A stretch of DNA of 25,293 nt, taken from positions 1 through 25,293 of the IMG/VR virus record IMGVR_UViG_3300035680_000085. One strand, 5' to 3'. The notes under the pieces are model-generated. The model was not told the origin of the DNA, did not search any database, and saw only the letters and a program-made list of their open reading frames with translations. This document shows positions 1,359-18,533 of this stretch, piece after piece. A program made the position numbers and the translations under genes. Source of the stretch: a virus. Numbering within the stretch: the first letter of the stretch is position 1; the number at the start of each line of letters is the position of its first letter.

Positions 1359-1552
1359 CGCGTGCGTTTCCTGCGTGGCGTGGCGTCGGCCGTCTTAACT
1401 GGCGTTTCGACAGCAGCGGTTTCAATCAACTGCCGTTGCTTGTCCTCGACTGCAACTTTTCGGGCGATCAGTTCAGCGGCCAGGCCGCCGGGTATGTCGA
1501 CCGTCTGGCCGGAGCAATAGGAACGCCACGACCGTACAAACTGTAGTTTCAC
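1355..1552 (-). CDS. Small hypothetical protein between glycosyltransferase and connector
   Basis: 65 residues from GTG at 1552-1550, which overlaps the stop of the upstream glycosyltransferase gene as GTGA; AGGA lies a few bases upstream. An in-frame ATG further upstream exists but would overlap that gene. The first half contains a Trp/Tyr/Cys-containing strand followed by DIPGGLAAELIARKVAV, a pattern common in small phage proteins next to connector genes. The C-terminal tail is basic (PRRKRTR). It probably has a minor virion or assembly role, judged only from position. Confidence 0.7.
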   Translation of the reverse strand: MKLQFVRSWRSYCSGQTVDIPGGLAAELIARKVAVEDKQRQLIETAAVETPVKTADATPRRKRTR

Positions 1553-2286
1553 GATTGTCCTACGCTCCATGCAGTTTCGGGTGCCTTGTTCGCTTTCATC
1601 CAGTCGCCCGTGTATTGGAAAACAGGCTTGCCGAGATCCCGGCCCGGCCAGGTCACGACGTACTCTCCGTGCCCGATTGACACTCGCGGCGTTACGAAAA
1701 CCTTGTTGCCAGAGTCTCGCCACGTGCGCCAGAAGCCGATGTCCGAGTCCACACGGCCTTGGCCGTAGCTGCCCTCTGGGTCTGGCCGTTCGTAAAACCA
1801 CGGCTTTTTCATTCGCTTCAGGGCCGCCGTCGAAATGATCGTGCAGCCGAAATGAGCGGAGTCCACTTGCTGCACAGGCTCGGCAAACCATGTAGCCGGC
1901 AGGGTGCTTGCACCGCCCTCGGGCGGATTGTCGAGCGTGCCCAGAAGCGTAAGCATCGGCCGCCCGTCTTCCCGTTTCACCTGCAGCGGCGCGAGTGCGT
2001 CACACTGGAACGCCAGAGCCATAGCGAACAGCTGCTCGATGTCCTGCCGGGAGACGAACGTGTCGTAGTCGAGCGTGATGATGTACTCGCACTGGTCGAC
2101 GAACTGTTCCATCATGCGAGTAAGCACCTGGCTCCAGAACGCACCCTGGCCGAGCGTGGGCCGGATCCCGAGCGGCATGAGGGCCTGAGCCCAGCCGAAC
2201 AGGTTGGCCAAAGGGCCGAACCTCGGGCCAGACAGAATCGCTTCCGCACGGATCTCGACCTCGGTGCCGCCGACCTTGATAAGCAC
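1549..2286 (-). CDS. Family-2-like glycosyltransferase in the structural operon
   Basis: About 245 residues. The sequence has a GT-A-like arrangement: an N-terminal segment, then ITLDYDTF with a D-x-D motif for metal/nucleotide-sugar binding, a middle block with HFGCTIIS, and a later DSDIGFWRTWRDSG acceptor-side block. It probably transfers a sugar to a virion protein or host glycan; substrate unknown. A GTG start at 2286 is preferred because GGAG (2297-2294) lies seven bases upstream; a TTG at 2292 in the same frame would sit too close. The gene begins just after a hairpin terminator following the capsid gene, so it needs read-through or its own promoter. Its stop overlaps the next start (GTGA). 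It is the first of three glycosyltransferases in the window. Confidence 0.75.
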   Translation of the reverse strand: MLIKVGGTEVEIRAEAILSGPRFGPLANLFGWAQALMPLGIRPTLGQGAFWSQVLTRMMEQFVDQCEYIITLDYDTFVSRQDIEQLFAMALAFQCDALAPLQVKREDGRPMLTLLGTLDNPPEGGASTLPATWFAEPVQQVDSAHFGCTIISTAALKRMKKPWFYERPDPEGSYGQGRVDSDIGFWRTWRDSGNKVFVTPRVSIGHGEYVVTWPGRDLGKPVFQYTGDWMKANKAPETAWSVGQS

Positions 2287-2297
2287 AGGCAAACTCC

Positions 2298-7925: not shown

Positions 7926-8291
7926 TTACGACCGTGGTTCGCCAGACCGCACCCCCCCGTGGTTGGGGCCACCCTCCCCCCTCCGCGACGGCGGGCGCTC
8001 GCGGATGGTCTTGCGTGAATGACACGAGCGACATCGGCACGCGCCGTTGTTCACGTCGTACCGCAGGTCGGGCCGTTGACTCACCGGAACGATGTGGTCC
8101 GCGTGATTGGCTTGGTCGATGCGGCCACAGTCCACGCAGGCCCATGCGTCACGCGTGAGCACGGCTTGCCGCCACCGGCGGTGTCGCTGGTCTGTGTATC
8201 CACGCACTGAGGCGCTCGGCCTGGTGCTATCGTCACGCGTGTAACGCGTACGTAGTCGCGGCGGCCTATGCGTGGGCATCCTGCTGGGCAT
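7926..8291 (-). CDS. HNH endonuclease (terminase-associated)
   Basis: 121 residues. The HNH core is visible: ACVDCG (Cys52, Cys55), HADHIVPVS (His63-His66), VNNGACRCRSCHSRKT (Asn81-82, Cys87, Cys90, His91). This is the small phage HNH type found next to terminase genes, which in HK97-like phages is needed for cos cleavage and packaging. The start ATG at 8291 overlaps the upstream stop (TAATG). A second in-frame Met four residues later is possible. 62 bases separate it from the small terminase start, a GC-rich gap where a packaging site could lie. Confidence 0.9.
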   Translation of the reverse strand: MPSRMPTHRPPRLRTRYTRDDSTRPSASVRGYTDQRHRRWRQAVLTRDAWACVDCGRIDQANHADHIVPVSQRPDLRYDVNNGACRCRSCHSRKTIRERPPSRRGEGGPNHGGVRSGEPRS

Positions 8292-11140: not shown

Positions 11141-11500
11141 CTACCAATCTGGCTCTAGCCCGGCCATGTCTTGCAGTTCGGCTGGCACTTCGCAGGATTT
11201 CAGCTGAAAGCCCTGCCGCTTCACTACACGCCGCTCTTGCTCCGTGGCCTCGTCCCAGGCTGCCCTGATCCGGCTGGTGGCGTCCCGGATCTCTGCCGGC
11301 GTCGGGTCGCGTTGCTCGCTTCTTTTTGGCTTGAACCGGAATCGCCTGTCGTGCCGAGGAGCGAGCGGCACGACAGACTTCAGCCGAATGAGCTGGTCTT
11401 TGGTTATCGTCCAATGCGTGCAGATCGCCACCATGGCTGAGTGAGAGTCCCACTGAACCCGCAGGAGGTTCAGATCAATCCTCGCCGTGTTGCCCGGCAT
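11141..11500 (-). CDS. Hypothetical protein with a possible helix-turn-helix
   Basis: 119 residues from ATG 11500, with GAGGTGG upstream and a 26-base overlap with the end of the preceding glycosyltransferase gene. Residues 20-45 (MVAICTHWTITKDQLIRLK) could form a helix-turn-helix; a basic stretch HDRRFRFKPKR follows, then an amphipathic helix (IRAAWDEATEQERRVVKRQG). A DNA-binding role is possible but unproven. Not assigned to a family. Confidence 0.65.
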   Translation of the reverse strand: MPGNTARIDLNLLRVQWDSHSAMVAICTHWTITKDQLIRLKSVVPLAPRHDRRFRFKPKRSEQRDPTPAEIRDATSRIRAAWDEATEQERRVVKRQGFQLKSCEVPAELQDMAGLEPDW

Positions 11501-12362
11501 CGAGCCACCTCATGACGCACCTCTGCGACGGGTTCAGATACAACCCAAGCCCGGTCGCCTTGGCGATGCTCTCGTGAAACGGAACGTGCTCGCAGTCGGC
11601 ACCGTCGTAGGTGCCAGCCAGGTAGGCGTCGGTGCGGTAGATGCACAGGCCGCCCATCGCACTACACACAGGCACAGGTGGGCTTCCGACCGGTGGCAAC
11701 CACTGGTGCTTCCATCCGCCGACGCCCGCGGTGTAGTCATCCCAGTAGGAGTTCAGCCGAAGCGCCCAGCAGTCGTAGTGCAGCCACGCAGCAATCGGCC
11801 GTGTGTGACCCTCGGCGTTCGTCTCGTAGGCCGGATGCTGTAGCAGCGACACGCTAGCCATGCCGTAGCATTCCGGCATGTCCATCAGCCAGCCGATGCC
11901 GTTCAAAAAACCATCAGCCGACCAGCCGCCCCACGCGTCGAAGTCGACAACCACCACGTAGTCCGAGTCGGCGGCGCAATCCCGGACCCATCGCTGGCAG
12001 GCCGTGCGGTACTCAGCGAGGGCCTCTGTGCGGCGGCCCGCGAACTCGGAGGAGAACTGCTGGCGGCCGAGCACCTGGTAGCCGAACGTGATCTGCCGGT
12101 GCTTGGCTGCAAACTCCGTCAGCACCTCTACGGTGTCATCCGTGCAGTCGTTCGATTCGATGTGGCACGCCCACTCCCGGCACCGCGATGTTATCTGCCC
12201 GAGCCGCAGGAGGTTTTGCCGCAGCGACAGGCCGCAGTTTCTGGCGAGCCCTACGAACGCCACCTTCGACCTCGCAAGCCTGCCCGAGGCGGCCGCCACG
12301 TGCCGGTCGTACGACTCGACGAACGGCGGCGACGGGCAGAGGAGGTGCTGTGGAATTTTCAC
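11475..12362 (-). CDS. Glycosyltransferase, GT-A type (Anp1/CAP59-like)
   Basis: 295 residues from GTG 12362, which overlaps the upstream glycosyltransferase stop as GTGA and follows GAGG. Motifs: VAFVGLARNCGLSL near the start, IESNDCTDDTVEVL, then RTEALAEYRTACQRW and VVVVDFDAWGGWS with the D-x-D metal site. This layout is seen in GT-A enzymes related to fungal Anp1/CAP59 mannosyltransferases and their bacterial relatives. It is paired with the GT immediately upstream, so both may decorate the same acceptor, a virion protein, phage DNA or host surface glycan. Sugar and acceptor are unknown. Confidence 0.8.
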   Translation of the reverse strand: MKIPQHLLCPSPPFVESYDRHVAAASGRLARSKVAFVGLARNCGLSLRQNLLRLGQITSRCREWACHIESNDCTDDTVEVLTEFAAKHRQITFGYQVLGRQQFSSEFAGRRTEALAEYRTACQRWVRDCAADSDYVVVVDFDAWGGWSADGFLNGIGWLMDMPECYGMASVSLLQHPAYETNAEGHTRPIAAWLHYDCWALRLNSYWDDYTAGVGGWKHQWLPPVGSPPVPVCSAMGGLCIYRTDAYLAGTYDGADCEHVPFHESIAKATGLGLYLNPSQRCVMRWLDAGQHGED

Positions 12363-12985
12363 CGGACTACCTCGTCGAGTGCCCTGGCGATCCACTGCGT
12401 GCGTTCAGCCATCGGAAACACGCCGCACGGGTGGTACACGAAATCTCCCGGCTGCCAGTGGCCGCCGACTTCGTCCCGCTCGTTTGCGGGTCGATTCCAC
12501 ACGCACGAGTTGAACGCCCGAAGCGGCGCCACCGTCAGAACGTCCACGCCCAGCGACGCAACCTCGCCTAGCAGGGTCTGCCACCCACACGGCAATCCCG
12601 CCCAGCGCTCACGGTCTTCGGAGATCGTCTGCAGGAGAGCACGTGCTTTGATTGTGTCGCGCCAGACCATGCTGCCGCAGTTGATCTGGTTCCACGAAAC
12701 GATTCCTTCCTCGCAAACCGTGACGTGCGGCCCGATGCACGCGAGCTCGTGGATTGGCTGCCGCATGTCCGTGATGACAGCGTCACAGTCCAGCGTCCAT
12801 AGCATGTCGAACCGGTCGAGGTAGTGGCACAGCAGTTCGACATTAGCCACCGCCTCTTCGTATGGCTGGTTGTCACAGATCAGCGTGTAGCCGTGCCGAA
12901 GGCAATACTCGAGCTTGTTCGGCACAGTGATCGCGGCCAGGTCGGTGACGTTGGCCGACACGCTCGTGACTACAGCCACCCTCAC
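12359..12985 (-). CDS. Glycosyltransferase, GMA12/MNN10-like (GT34-type)
   Basis: 208 residues. It starts with GTG at 12985, overlapping the RusA stop (GTGA). The N-terminus VAVVTSVSANV and the NKLEYCLRHGYTLICDN block, the LWTLDCDAVITD metal-binding D-x-D motif, an INCGSMVWR strand, and the late HWQPGDFVYHPCG block match the galactosyl/mannosyltransferase GMA12/MNN10 pattern. Shorter than eukaryotic members but complete in motifs. Transfers a hexose to an unknown acceptor; neighbours suggest a role in virion or host glycan modification. Confidence 0.8.
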   Translation of the reverse strand: MRVAVVTSVSANVTDLAAITVPNKLEYCLRHGYTLICDNQPYEEAVANVELLCHYLDRFDMLWTLDCDAVITDMRQPIHELACIGPHVTVCEEGIVSWNQINCGSMVWRDTIKARALLQTISEDRERWAGLPCGWQTLLGEVASLGVDVLTVAPLRAFNSCVWNRPANERDEVGGHWQPGDFVYHPCGVFPMAERTQWIARALDEVVR

Positions 12986-14371: not shown

Positions 14372-15475
14372 TTACTCCGCCAGCGGCATGATCACGCCGT
14401 GAACGTCGCCGCACTTGAGCCGCACGGCATCGCCCGGCTTCGCGGCCTGAATCTCCACATCCGGCTCGCTGTCCTTGGCCAAGCCAGCCAGGAAGTCGAG
14501 CAGGAACTTCGGGTCGAGCTTCACTGTGGCAGCGTTGCCGAACTCCACGATGTCGCACGTCACGCTGGACTCGCCAGCCTCGCTGCTCTGAGCGTGGAGG
14601 TGCAGGCCCTCCTTGGAGAACGAGAAGTCCACGCCCTTACTCGACTCGCTCGTGGTGATGGCAGCGGCCCGCGTGGCATCAGCCAGCAGACCGCGGCTCA
14701 CGGTCGTCGCCTTGGTCGAGTTCGTCGGGAATACATCTCGCCATGGCGGAAACCGGCCCTCGACCAGCCGGGCCGTCACCACGGTCGACCCGATGGTACA
14801 GACCAGCGTGTTCGTGCTCGCCTCGAGCTCCACGAGCTCCTCGCCGCCGGCTTCCTTGGCGATCTCGGCCAATAGCTTGGCCACCCGTTGCGGAATCAAC
14901 GTCTCCGAGTCATCGACGGCCAGGTCGTGCTCGGCTTCGGCCATCGTGAGCCGCCGGCCGTCTGTGGCCACGACAGAGACCTTGTCGCCCTTGACCTCGA
15001 CCATCACGCCACCCAGTGCGTACCGGGTGCTTTTCATGTCGCAGGCTTCCACCACGGCATGCACCAGTCCGGCGAACTGGTCGGCCGGAAGCTTGATCCG
15101 GTTGGCCGCGTGCTCGGCCGTCATGGTCGGAAACTCGGCCGGATCTTCCGTCGGCAGCGTCCAGGAGCCGCGCTTGGTCGACAGCACGCAGCTGGTGTCC
15201 TGCGGCGTGATCGTGATCTCGTCGTCGCGGCACTCGGTCAGGATCGACCAGACCCGTGCGAACGGCAGCAAGAGCGCCGGGCCGTCGAACGGCACGGCCG
15301 CCGTCACCTGCACCTCGAGGTCGGTGCCGACCACCTGGCCGCCCGAGATCAGCACGTTGCGCAGAATCGGCCGCGGCGTGCGGTCAGTCACCGCGCTTTT
15401 CACGATCGAAAATGCCGCCTTGAGCGCCGCGACGCTCAACACGATGCCATTGCGATTTCTGGTAGTCGTACCCAT
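14372..15475 (-). CDS. dnaN: DNA polymerase III beta subunit (sliding clamp)
   Basis: 367 residues, the normal length of bacterial beta clamps. Three-domain clamp features are present: PRPILRNVLI near residue 35, a VGTDLEVQV strand, RYALGGVMVE at about 151, the highly conserved ATDGRRLTMAE at 170-180, and a VIMPLAE C-terminus matching the canonical IMPM end. The start ATG at 15475 has AAGGA upstream. The clamp holds the replicative polymerase on DNA; a phage copy would form its own clamp. It overlaps a small membrane-protein gene at its 5' end. Confidence 0.95.
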   Translation of the reverse strand: MGTTTRNRNGIVLSVAALKAAFSIVKSAVTDRTPRPILRNVLISGGQVVGTDLEVQVTAAVPFDGPALLLPFARVWSILTECRDDEITITPQDTSCVLSTKRGSWTLPTEDPAEFPTMTAEHAANRIKLPADQFAGLVHAVVEACDMKSTRYALGGVMVEVKGDKVSVVATDGRRLTMAEAEHDLAVDDSETLIPQRVAKLLAEIAKEAGGEELVELEASTNTLVCTIGSTVVTARLVEGRFPPWRDVFPTNSTKATTVSRGLLADATRAAAITTSESSKGVDFSFSKEGLHLHAQSSEAGESSVTCDIVEFGNAATVKLDPKFLLDFLAGLAKDSEPDVEIQAAKPGDAVRLKCGDVHGVIMPLAE

Positions 15476-15584
15476 GTGAAGAATCCTTTCGCTTGAGGGA
15501 AGCACCCACGGCGATGCCGAGGGCAAAAGTCAATCCGTTGACCAGAACACCAGTTGCTAGAAACACTGCGTTTTCGACAGTCAT
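15384..15584 (-). CDS. Small membrane protein overlapping the clamp gene
   Basis: 66 residues, frame +1 to the clamp gene, which it overlaps by 92 bases. The start ATG at 15584 overlaps the upstream stop (ATGA) after GAGGTGACCAC, a copy of the coupling cassette used at the two preceding junctions. Residues 6-30 form a hydrophobic, glycine-containing helix (FLATGVLVNGLTFALGIAVG); the tail is basic. The 5' half precedes the clamp start and has good coding character, so a real product is likely, but the long overlap leaves doubt about its end. Confidence 0.55.
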   Translation of the reverse strand: MTVENAVFLATGVLVNGLTFALGIAVGASLKRKDSSHGYDYQKSQWHRVERRGAQGGIFDREKRGD

Positions 15585-15820: not shown

Positions 15821-16011
15821 CCTCGGCCGGCATTGGCTGCCAAGGCCTTATCAAGCCTTTTTTGCGACGATGCCGACCTATTGGCCCGGCGGGCCTCTTC
15901 GGCCTTTTCGCACACGCCCAGAAGCTGGAGGAGCATGTTTAGTCGCCGAGATGTACGTCGAAACTCCTCGCGGACTTCCTCAGACGTTGGAAGAGATTCC
16001 TCAATCGTCAT
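15802..16011 (-). CDS. Small hypothetical protein
   Basis: 69 residues from ATG 16011, which overlaps the initiator stop within the repeat cassette. The sequence is charged and helical (SEEVREEFRRTSRRLNMLLQ, then EKAEEARRANRSASSQKR), likely a coiled coil, ending in GKEVTT. No family recognised. It lies directly after the initiator gene, where lambdoid phages keep a helicase-loader gene, but it is too short to be a known loader. Confidence 0.7.
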   Translation of the reverse strand: MTIEESLPTSEEVREEFRRTSRRLNMLLQLLGVCEKAEEARRANRSASSQKRLDKALAANAGRGKEVTT

Positions 16012-16026
16012 GTGGTGACCTCCTTG
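16007..16026. repeat. Translational-coupling cassette copy (exact 20-bp repeat)
   Basis: Identical to 15801-15820, at the junction of the initiator gene and the 69-residue gene. Confidence 0.9.
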
Positions 16027-16856
16027 CGCAATTGGTTGACCATCTTCCGCCGCGTGTACTCAAAGTCGTCGGCGTCCTTGCCCTTGAATCCCTCGGCCGG
16101 TGGCTTCTCGTCTGGCGATCGGTAGCCGCCCGCAGGCCGCTGCTCCCGTGGGTTGTCGAACTGGCCGCCCAAAACCTTGTCCACGAAGCCAGGAGCCAGC
16201 AGCTGCGGCAGCGTTACCGGGTCGCGGAAGTATCTGCACCTCGGCAGGGCGTCGATGGCCGCCAGGGCCTTCTCGAACCAGCCCTCCTCGGCCAGACGGT
16301 CGGCCACCTTGTCCGGCGGCGCCGGTAGCTTCCACGGTCGGCCAGTGCCGGTAGCCCAAGCCCTCCGTAGCGTCTCCCAGCCCGCCGGTTCCTCCTGCGA
16401 AAGCGCAGCGCTCCCGTGGGAAGAAGAAGAATTTCTATCTCTTCTATCTCTTCTATCTGGTGCGCTTGAGCGCACGGGTGCGTGCGCTTGAGCGCACGCG
16501 GTAGTGCGCCCACGCGCACCAGAGGCCCGAGAAGCGTGCAAAGCCCGTGATTTTGCGGCCTGCGAGAACCGACGCTCCCATCCGGGGATCGCCACAGTTC
16601 CGTTCTCCGCGTCAATCACCAGCCAGCCGACTTCCTGGACCGCCAACCAGAACGCCTCGTCGCCGCCACAGATCCGGCCGAGGAGCCGGACTGACATCCG
16701 GGCGGTGCCGTCTGCACTGTTCAGCGAGGCCCAGCCCCAGAGCATGAGGAGCCGCCCGACGACCTGGTCGACCGGCAGACCGGTCGAGTCGACGAGCTCG
16801 AGCACCTCGGGCTTCTGCGGTAGGCAAACGTCGTAGGGAACCCACTCACCGGCCAT
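16008..16856 (-). CDS. Phage replication initiator / replisome organizer with internal origin
   Basis: 282 residues from ATG 16856, chosen because AAAGGAGG lies six bases upstream; an upstream in-frame start lacks this. The N-terminal ~110 residues (WVPYDVCLPQKPEVLELVD, VVGRLLMLWGWASLN, RLLGRICGGDEAFWLAVQEVGWL) resemble the winged-helix domain of phage replication initiators. A low-complexity Ala/Arg/Ser linker follows (about 113-160), then a C-terminal domain with PDKVADRLAEEGWFEKALAAI. The linker DNA carries iterons and a 9-bp repeat tract, as in lambda O. It binds the origin and probably recruits the host helicase. It ends in KEVTT. Confidence 0.8.
   Translation of the reverse strand: MAGEWVPYDVCLPQKPEVLELVDSTGLPVDQVVGRLLMLWGWASLNSADGTARMSVRLLGRICGGDEAFWLAVQEVGWLVIDAENGTVAIPGWERRFSQAAKSRALHASRASGARGRTTACAQAHAPVRSSAPDRRDRRDRNSSSSHGSAALSQEEPAGWETLRRAWATGTGRPWKLPAPPDKVADRLAEEGWFEKALAAIDALPRCRYFRDPVTLPQLLAPGFVDKVLGGQFDNPREQRPAGGYRSPDEKPPAEGFKGKDADDFEYTRRKMVNQLRKEVTT
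16433..16519. other. Putative replication origin (iterons plus repeat tract) inside initiator gene
   Basis: Three tandem 9-bp repeats TTCTATCTC/G (16433-16459), AT-richer than the surroundings, abut three palindromic elements beginning at 16460, 16482 and 16504, an exact 22-bp period. The first two are identical (GTGCGCTTGAGCGCACG); the third is GTGCGC-CCAC-GCGCAC. This is the iteron plus unwinding-element layout of a lambda-type origin, placed in the linker of the initiator gene. Confidence 0.75.
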
Positions 16857-17151
16857 CCGTGGCCTCCTTTCCAAACTCTGTTACGGAGCCGTCCTCGTTG
16901 ACTTTCCCGGCCCTCAACGTCAGCCCGTTCATCTTGTCGTATGCCATGCGGATCAGCGCGCGGCACTGCGGAACCGTCAGCCGCCCATTGAGCTCGGCGT
17001 CCAGGATCATCCCTTGGACGCCCATCTCTCTAGTGTCGGTGCTCAATTCAGAAGCCGGCGGGCACCTGAGGTCATCTGGACGAAGAAGCAAGTCCTCATG
17101 CAAGGCATCTTCGATCACTATCTCAAAGTCGCGCACGATGTCATTTGCCAA
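16846..17151 (-). CDS. Small hypothetical protein upstream of the initiator
   Basis: 101 residues from TTG at 17151, with GGGGGTG ahead; the stop is 11 bases inside the initiator start region. The sequence is acidic at the N-terminus (IVRDFEIVIEDALHEDLLL), contains STDTREMGVQGMILDAELNG and IRMAYDKMNGLTL. It is soluble with no recognised motif. It is probably co-expressed with the initiator. Confidence 0.65.
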   Translation of the reverse strand: MANDIVRDFEIVIEDALHEDLLLRPDDLRCPPASELSTDTREMGVQGMILDAELNGRLTVPQCRALIRMAYDKMNGLTLRAGKVNEDGSVTEFGKEATDGR

Positions 17152-17162
17152 AGTCGCACCCC

Positions 17163-18497
17163 CTAGTAGTTGTTCATGTAGTAAGAAGGGACGCCTTTGA
17201 CTCGTTTTTCGGAATCAGCCTCTAATAGCTTCCTGTTTGCTTCGTTAACCCGCCTTCGCTGTACTGCGTCGGTGTCTCGCGGCTTGCCGCCGAACCACCT
17301 AGACGAAGTGATCTCACGGCGTGCAACAACTTGCAGCCTTTCCTGTGCGTCGATCACAAGCGGTGTGCCGCGGCTTTCAGCAACAGACGTAGCGTCAAGT
17401 GGTGTAGTGACGCGGGACTGTTGTGCAATTTCACGCAGCGCGGCGATCTCGTCGGCGGACGCCGAGTGCCGCTGATTTATTCGTGAAAGAACTTCTTCCG
17501 CTGATGCGTGAGCAGGAATCGACGGTGACGCTCGTGGCGAAAGTCTGTTTTTTCTTCCTACAAATGTGCTTGCATCCTCTAGGTCTCGTATCAACTGCCT
17601 AACCATTTCGAGGACGTACTCGCGGTCGCCGTTCCATGTCATAGAAAAATGACCACGGAACCGAAACTTGCTGTCAAACCAAGTCTTGCGGTCAATGTTC
17701 AGCCGTCTGTTTTCGGTCACGACGTGCGAATTGCGCACCTTCATTTTCACCATAAGATGCTTCATGCCGTCGTCCGCGGTAGCTGCCTTTGATAGCGCGT
17801 GGGAGTCGTCGAGCAGCTGCCACCTATCACCCCCTGCGCACCTCCAGATGAGGCCGAGGTAAAACGCGAACAGACACTGTTCGCCGGCCGCCAGAAACAC
17901 ATTCATGACCCTCGGCTTAAACAAGCCCTCGACTACCACGGTCCCGCTTGTTGAGAAGGATGAAATGCAGATTCGCTCGGAGCCGAACTTCGAGCAGAGG
18001 CCTGCCGCAGCCGAGTCAAGTATCCACCAGCAAGTTGCACCACCCGAAGATGTGTGCGCAATTTTTGGCCTATATCTATCGATGCCGCTGCAGACCACCT
18101 CCGCCACGATCGCAGACTCTTTGTGGATCGCGTCCCATATGTAGCCGGATTGACTATCAGTAATCTCGCAGTCGAAGCCAACGCTGTGCAGACCCCGTTT
18201 GATGCACAGATGCGCTGGCGTTTCGCGGCCGGTCGGACAATTTCCTCTTGATGAAGCGTGTGCAAAAAATGGCGTGCCATTCCTGCCGACGTAATGCCTC
18301 ATTTGCCCTTTACATTTCGGGCAGCGAAATCCGCTTGCGTACTGATCGCGTCCCGCAACCCGAACCTCATCCGCAGTGACTAGCTCGCCAGACTGTAACG
18401 CCAGCGCAAACGGGTTAGTTCTTTGCTTTGCTCTGTCGCCATCAGCAAGCGAATCCAGTCGGTCCAGAATGTTTGCGTCGTCCGTAATCGCGTCCAT
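17163..18497 (-). CDS. CoiA-like protein with N-terminal zinc/nuclease-like domain
   Basis: 444 residues from ATG 18497 with GAGG eight bases ahead (a GTG one codon earlier is also open). Residues 56-110 match the competence protein CoiA N-terminal region: FRCPKCKG (Cys59, Cys62), FFAH (His80), then a Cys at 87 and ETPAHLCIKRGL, followed by a YIWDAIH acidic block that may be a degenerate nuclease site. CoiA-type proteins are linked to DNA uptake and recombination. The remaining 300 residues are unassigned. By eye the gene has lower GC than its neighbours, which suggests separate acquisition. Role in the phage is unknown. Confidence 0.7.
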   Translation of the reverse strand: MDAITDDANILDRLDSLADGDRAKQRTNPFALALQSGELVTADEVRVAGRDQYASGFRCPKCKGQMRHYVGRNGTPFFAHASSRGNCPTGRETPAHLCIKRGLHSVGFDCEITDSQSGYIWDAIHKESAIVAEVVCSGIDRYRPKIAHTSSGGATCWWILDSAAAGLCSKFGSERICISSFSTSGTVVVEGLFKPRVMNVFLAAGEQCLFAFYLGLIWRCAGGDRWQLLDDSHALSKAATADDGMKHLMVKMKVRNSHVVTENRRLNIDRKTWFDSKFRFRGHFSMTWNGDREYVLEMVRQLIRDLEDASTFVGRKNRLSPRASPSIPAHASAEEVLSRINQRHSASADEIAALREIAQQSRVTTPLDATSVAESRGTPLVIDAQERLQVVARREITSSRWFGGKPRDTDAVQRRRVNEANRKLLEADSEKRVKGVPSYYMNNY

Positions 18498-18533
18498 CAC
18501 ACGTACCTCAGTTTGCTTTTGACCACGGTTCGC

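Follow-up and report, generated by a model that had tools for sequence, protein, structure and literature searches.

Replication origins that lie inside the gene of their own initiator are already known from phage lambda O and from RepA_N plasmids, and the swapping of an origin together with its DNA-binding domain is known from PLE satellites. In lambda the origin occupies the central part of the initiator gene O (PMC7466680), the position that we propose for the origin described here, and its four iterons, spaced at 20-24 bp, are imperfect palindromes. Analysed in the same way as our locus, lambda O has its iterons inside the gene and, immediately downstream of them, the least stable tract of the locus, which is 73% purine on the coding strand. 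In the RepA_N plasmid pSK41 the Rep boxes lie centrally in the rep gene, are bound by the winged-helix N-domain, and the origin encodes the linker, while the ∼500-bp exchange in the hybrid pPR9 comprises N-domain and origin (PMC5703833). The PLE satellites of Vibrio cholerae carry a RepA_N protein and an ori; origin and DNA-binding domain co-vary and were repeatedly swapped, and specificity for the cognate origin has been shown experimentally (PMC8263062). What we regard as new is a putative origin that is like that of lambda but belongs to another family of initiators, and in which the unit that sets specificity and can be exchanged is unusually small. In the literature searched, with subscription journals mostly outside its scope, we found neither a mapped origin for this initiator family nor a report of a cassette made of a helix and its sites.

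The window, i.e. the whole 25.3-kb stretch of viral DNA that was analysed, has ∼63% G+C and belongs to a phage genome with a clamp-like protein, a RecA/Sak4-like ATPase, integrase, terminase, portal and capsid. The initiator gene and its parts are as follows:

16008-16856, minus strand: initiator gene, 282 aa from ATG (MAGEW), PHROG 2509 'replication initiation protein'
16587-16856, minus strand: N-terminal winged-helix-like domain, aa 1-90 (AlphaFold2), conserved whatever the iteron type
16503-16562, minus strand: terminal helix of the AKxR type, aa 99-118 (AlphaFold2, pLDDT only 65-75)
16536-16538, minus strand: H107, position +3, candidate base-reading residue (half-site covariation)
16524-16526, minus strand: A111, position +7, candidate base-reading residue (half-site covariation)
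16008-16379, minus strand: C-terminal domain, from aa 160 (AlphaFold2)

The MAGEW start is common to the relatives; an alternative TTG start at 16874 would give 288 aa. A profile match to PHROG 2509 (E 1.3e-22) covers residues 7-160, that is N-domain and linker, and places the protein in this family. Pfam gave no match even at E 1, and PDB searches by sequence and by fold gave no significant match. AlphaFold2 predicts, in this order, the winged-helix-like N-domain (pLDDT >90 for most of aa 11-90), the terminal helix, a disordered linker and the C-domain. Among the relatives K102 in the terminal helix is invariant, and R104 and R110 are nearly so. The C-domain probably recruits the helicase or a helicase loader. 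Many PHROG 2509 initiators have a DnaT C-domain or an adjacent dnaC-like gene, unlike the window, in which neither was seen.

By sequence the protein belongs to neither the lambda O nor the RepA_N family. No match to PF04492 (Phage_rep_O) was obtained, while lambda O itself scores 5.7e-36, and the two N-domains have no detectable relation (hhalign probability 0.9%). The iteron sequences are also unrelated to those of lambda; the first-pass annotation had described the same logic with unrelated sequence. A RepA_N protein is not indicated either, since PF06970 is missing (no Pfam match) and the fold matches are weak, with 4pt7 and 5kbj, which we take to be plasmid Rep structures, at E about 0.4-0.6. 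RepA_N plasmids differ from the window in the initiator family and in exchanging the whole N-domain with the origin instead of a terminal helix with iterons; in PLE satellites the origin lies outside repA and the whole domain is swapped.

The following elements were found within the gene, between the coding regions of the N- and C-terminal domains:

16504-16519: iteron 1 in reading order, GTGCGC-CCAC-GCGCAC on the plus strand, GTGCGCCCACGCGCAC
16482-16497: iteron 2, GTGCGC-TTGA-GCGCAC, GTGCGCTTGAGCGCAC
16460-16475: iteron 3, GTGCGC-TTGA-GCGCAC, GTGCGCTTGAGCGCAC, adjoining the easily melted tract
16433-16459: three 9-bp repeats, TTCTATCTC/G on the plus strand, abutting the iterons
16420-16459: candidate unwinding element, by nearest-neighbour energies less stable than any other 40 bp of the window, abutting the array

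Because the gene is on the minus strand, the reading order is helix, iterons, 9-mers. The iterons are three 16-bp inverted repeats with a pitch of exactly 22 + 22 bp, and the 9-mers are TTCTATCTC at 16433 and 16442 and TTCTATCTG at 16451, which form a mostly purine tract on the coding strand (AGATAGAAGAGATAGAA). Coordinates, pitch and the abutting tandem repeats had thus been given correctly in the first-pass annotation, as had the location between the two domains, where the iterons lie inside the gene and a disordered linker is predicted. Its description of the iterons as perfectly palindromic does not hold: the arms are 6-7 bp and flank a non-palindromic centre of 2-4 bp that does not pair. 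Within the 25.3-kb window, GTGCGC-N4-GCGCAC with 0 or 1 mismatch occurs only in these three iterons. Since the linker is of low complexity and the window rich in G+C, codon bias or a repetitive peptide might be thought to have produced the array as a by-product. Synonymous recoding with the protein fixed, however, gave an equal three-palindrome array in one of 60,000 trials, so that chance does not account for it; a period-9 run as good as the real one arose in 5 of 20,000. Computation shows that the array is selected as DNA. As relatives moreover keep the DNA while the peptide changes, a by-product is already contradicted, and we give it practically no credence.

The duplex-stability profile, proposed as a check by the first-pass annotation, placed the least stable 40 bp next to the array, and the same tract is the least stable stretch of the window at lengths of 30 and 50 bp. 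In 89 of 96 relatives the corresponding tract is within the least stable 1% of the locus, and the relatives' tracts are 72% purine compared to a background of 54%; in one 43.8-kb relative (G003) it is absent from the eight least stable sites. Two features of a lambda-type in-gene origin are present here, palindromic iterons between N- and C-domain and an easily melted tract that abuts them on the C-domain side. GC skew in the window drifts steadily and follows gene direction (the records are linear fragments), and in three relatives of 40-55 kb it likewise follows gene direction, with no turning point at the initiator gene. Palindromic protein sites would fit equally well an operator, at which the initiator or another DNA-binding protein controls transcription of the gene while replication starts elsewhere, and from a change of the sites together with the helix it follows only that they are read by the protein. 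The array is, however, ∼300 bp inside the gene, away from the promoter, with a low-stability, mostly purine tract after it as in the lambda origin. We thus consider an operator instead of an origin improbable, although the sites may have a second role of this kind.

Scans of viral contigs yielded about 110 relatives with more than 100 distinct linkers, while a search of genome contigs gave only two, on ∼3 kb contigs binned as Planctomycetota and Burkholderiales. Arrays of half-sites are retained in all main clades, and in nearly all of the relatives the AKxR helix is followed by an array and this by a low-stability, mostly purine tract. Palindromes and pitch persist although the linker amino acids differ completely, the opposite of the outcome that the first-pass annotation had named as speaking against its reading, namely a linker peptide kept while the palindromes are lost. 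The arrays, scored with a centre of 3-4 bp and a pitch of 21-23 bp allowed, mostly exceed the synonymous-codon null; the GGGCGC and ACGCGC types have iteron centres of 3 bp and are both missed by a 4-bp/22-bp score. Decayed or ambiguous iterons are found in few relatives (L007-L016, in the third unit; L040; L092-L094). Helix, array and tract follow one another in this way, with half-sites GTAACG or GTCCG, in the annotated relatives CP2, PAN70, ctnlZ23, TL-2011b, epsilon15 and phiPSA1, and further in VW-6S, CBW1004C, a Klebsiella prophage, 673R7, Rac-type ydaU, Carin1 and SAC. Epsilon15, TL-2011b and Rac-type YdaU also match the PHROG 2509 profile. The initiators of this family (epsilon15, CP2, TL-2011b, Rac-type YdaU) resemble that of the window in the AKxR-type helix, the half-site array and the mostly purine tract, but differ in their GTAACG or GTCCG half-sites, which often stand as two forward and two reversed.

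The latter arrangement is found in epsilon15, TL-2011b and CP2 with a spacing of about 11-13 bp, and among these phages and the GTCCG type arrays with three forward copies and then reverse also occur. Due to these other orientations, the common unit is a half-site about once per helical turn, and the 22-bp palindrome, judging from the relatives, is one arrangement of this unit. The first-pass annotation had taken the palindromes to imply one initiator dimer per iteron, spaced by two turns; this does not follow, because the relatives space the same half-sites by about 11-13 bp and orient them differently. The same arrangements bear on the possibility that the palindromes fold into hairpins once transcribed into RNA and serve in termination, pausing or translational control. 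Inverted repeats that are kept in many clades while their sequence changes could be expected of hairpins, but forward-forward-reverse-reverse or forward x3-reverse arrays (epsilon15, TL-2011b, CP2, GTCCG type) cannot form the same compact structures, and half-site sequence and pitch are kept even there. Hairpins also need neither identical copies within each phage nor a match to protein residues, and an Rfam search gave zero matches, which leaves this explanation very unlikely.

Among the phages nine half-site types were distinguished (GTGCGC, GGGCGC, ACGCGC, CTGCGC, CGGCGC, TGGCGC, GTGACG, GTAACG and GTCCG), and within one phage every copy is of one type, as in concerted change. Each phage was typed from the counts of a fixed set of half-sites, with a separate check for GTCCG; automatic picking was unsuited, as it sometimes took 6-mers of the purine tract or a palindrome on its far side and failed on the GTCCG group. 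The type table leaves out L092-L094 and one Vibrio phage. On the N-domain tree, whose forks are weakly resolved, the type changes at least 21 times, compared to a minimum of 8 for nine types. Phage pairs with 97-99% identical N-domains differ in helix and half-site together, e.g. L022 and L027 (97%; GGGCGC and GTGCGC) and L187 and L203 (99%; GTCCG and GTGACG). In such pairs the genes have a DNA identity of about 0.8-0.96 over the N-domain; it drops to 0.33-0.68 at the helix end and iterons, and recovers partly or fully past the iterons in the tract. The N-domain alone can therefore not set the specificity.

A first look at the N-domain columns gave just one weak column that discriminates iteron types, so attention moved to the helix after AKxR. 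When 103 columns of the N-domain and 11 positions of the helix were compared, +7 predicted the half-site best (normalised information 0.93), which is partly because helix and sites are linked. Position +10 is second (0.90), but was discounted since in the GTGCGC type its codon may fall within the first iteron, while the codons of +3 and +7 overlap the iterons in no type. Position +6 is always R. The residues at +3 and +7 correspond nearly one to one to the half-site:

+3 H, +7 A: [G/C]TGCGC
+3 H, +7 Q: GTGACG
+3 H, +7 S: CGGCGC
+3 A/S/T, +7 H: GGGCGC
+3 E, +7 N: ACGCGC
+3 D/E, +7 K: GTCCG
+3 T, +7 V; +3 A, +7 Q; or +3 G, +7 T: GTAACG
+3 K, +7 Q: TGGCGC

The match could in principle reflect linkage in a true origin, if recombination swaps all that is downstream of AKxR and the winged-helix domain does the reading. 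The helix adjoins the iterons, so that linkage alone would give a correlation, and in a partial Mantel test, which favours the helix (0.34), the N-domain distance keeps its own correlation with site type (0.56), for which reason the N-domain may contribute to site choice. Near-identical N-domains do, however, occur with different half-sites, and far clades with a common half-site agree at +7 (and in the +3 type) but differ elsewhere in the helix: GGGCGC goes with H at +7 in clades whose N-domains are 64% identical, and GTCCG with K at +7 at 24-25% identity. Linkage without reading by the helix is thus unlikely in our view. We favour, with moderate confidence, an in-frame cassette of ∼100 bp that encodes the DNA-reading helix and its sites and is swapped as a whole to change origin specificity, with +3 and +7 as a near one-to-one half-site code across N-domains down to ∼25% identity.

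Taken together, the feature is very likely a phage replication origin inside its own initiator gene, with half-site binding, adjacent melting and helicase recruitment, in which the helix after the winged-helix domain reads the sites. The match to the initiator family, the domain layout and the least stable tract at the array support the lambda-O-style origin suggested initially. We infer that binding, melting, helicase recruitment and the start of replication take place here. Copies of the initiator would bind the six GTGCGC half-sites, and since these are about one helical turn apart, the copies would sit on one face of the DNA, a lining-up that is supported by the covariation of helix and sites. 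Strain of this complex would then melt the adjoining least stable 40 bp, and the C-domain would bring in the host helicase, two steps that we propose by analogy to lambda (PMC7466680). The half-sites would be read by the helix chiefly via +3 and +7 after AKxR. As the coding sequence of this helix lies directly 5' of the sites, the two would together make up a single ∼100-bp cassette that phages exchange. If true, this places the origin for a large initiator family, including epsilon15-like, CP2-like, Rac-like and many environmental phages. It would also provide a rare natural data set, in which DNA-reading residues are encoded beside their targets and were switched together at least about twenty times; due to this adjacency and repeated co-switching the sequences allow a recognition code to be proposed. 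A switch of origin is relevant to phage compatibility and to the escape from origin-targeting agents, as reported for PLE satellites (PMC8263062).

Some further observations were made on the relatives and on the neighbourhood of the gene. The N-domain of Rac ydaU in E. coli K-12 (L278, 120-977) differs from that of the Rac-type phage copy, while the C-domain is the same. Its linker has TGTTCAAAC repeats at 512, 545 and, reversed, 569, followed by a low-stability tract. This is a candidate location for oriJ, the Rac origin, which has been called active (PMC3945230). Due to this different N-domain allele with TGTTCAAAC repeats, MG1655 ydaU was dropped as evidence. Relatives L081-L226 of the GTGACG and GTCCG types carry a conserved palindrome, AACCGGC-tgc-GCCGGTT, beyond the purine tract, ∼135-150 nt after AKxR, and in all types inverted repeats with arms of at least 6 are commoner beyond the tract than elsewhere in the genes (32% vs 6%). 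In the window, a beta sliding clamp-like protein (14372-15526, minus strand; PF02767 E 7e-17, PHROG 947 E 6e-53) is encoded a few genes downstream of the initiator. The ORF at 17163-18500 (minus strand), a stretch with ∼55% G+C and thus below the window average, has a sub-threshold match to the N-domain of the competence protein CoiA, and an HNH endonuclease (7926-8291, minus strand) has a weak match, far below the cut-off, to the HNH part of IscB. The ORFs at 11475-12395 and 1549-2292 (minus strand) are by eye perhaps glycosyltransferase-like and have no family match, whereas the glycosyltransferase-like protein at 12359-12985 (minus strand) matches PF05637 above the cut-off.
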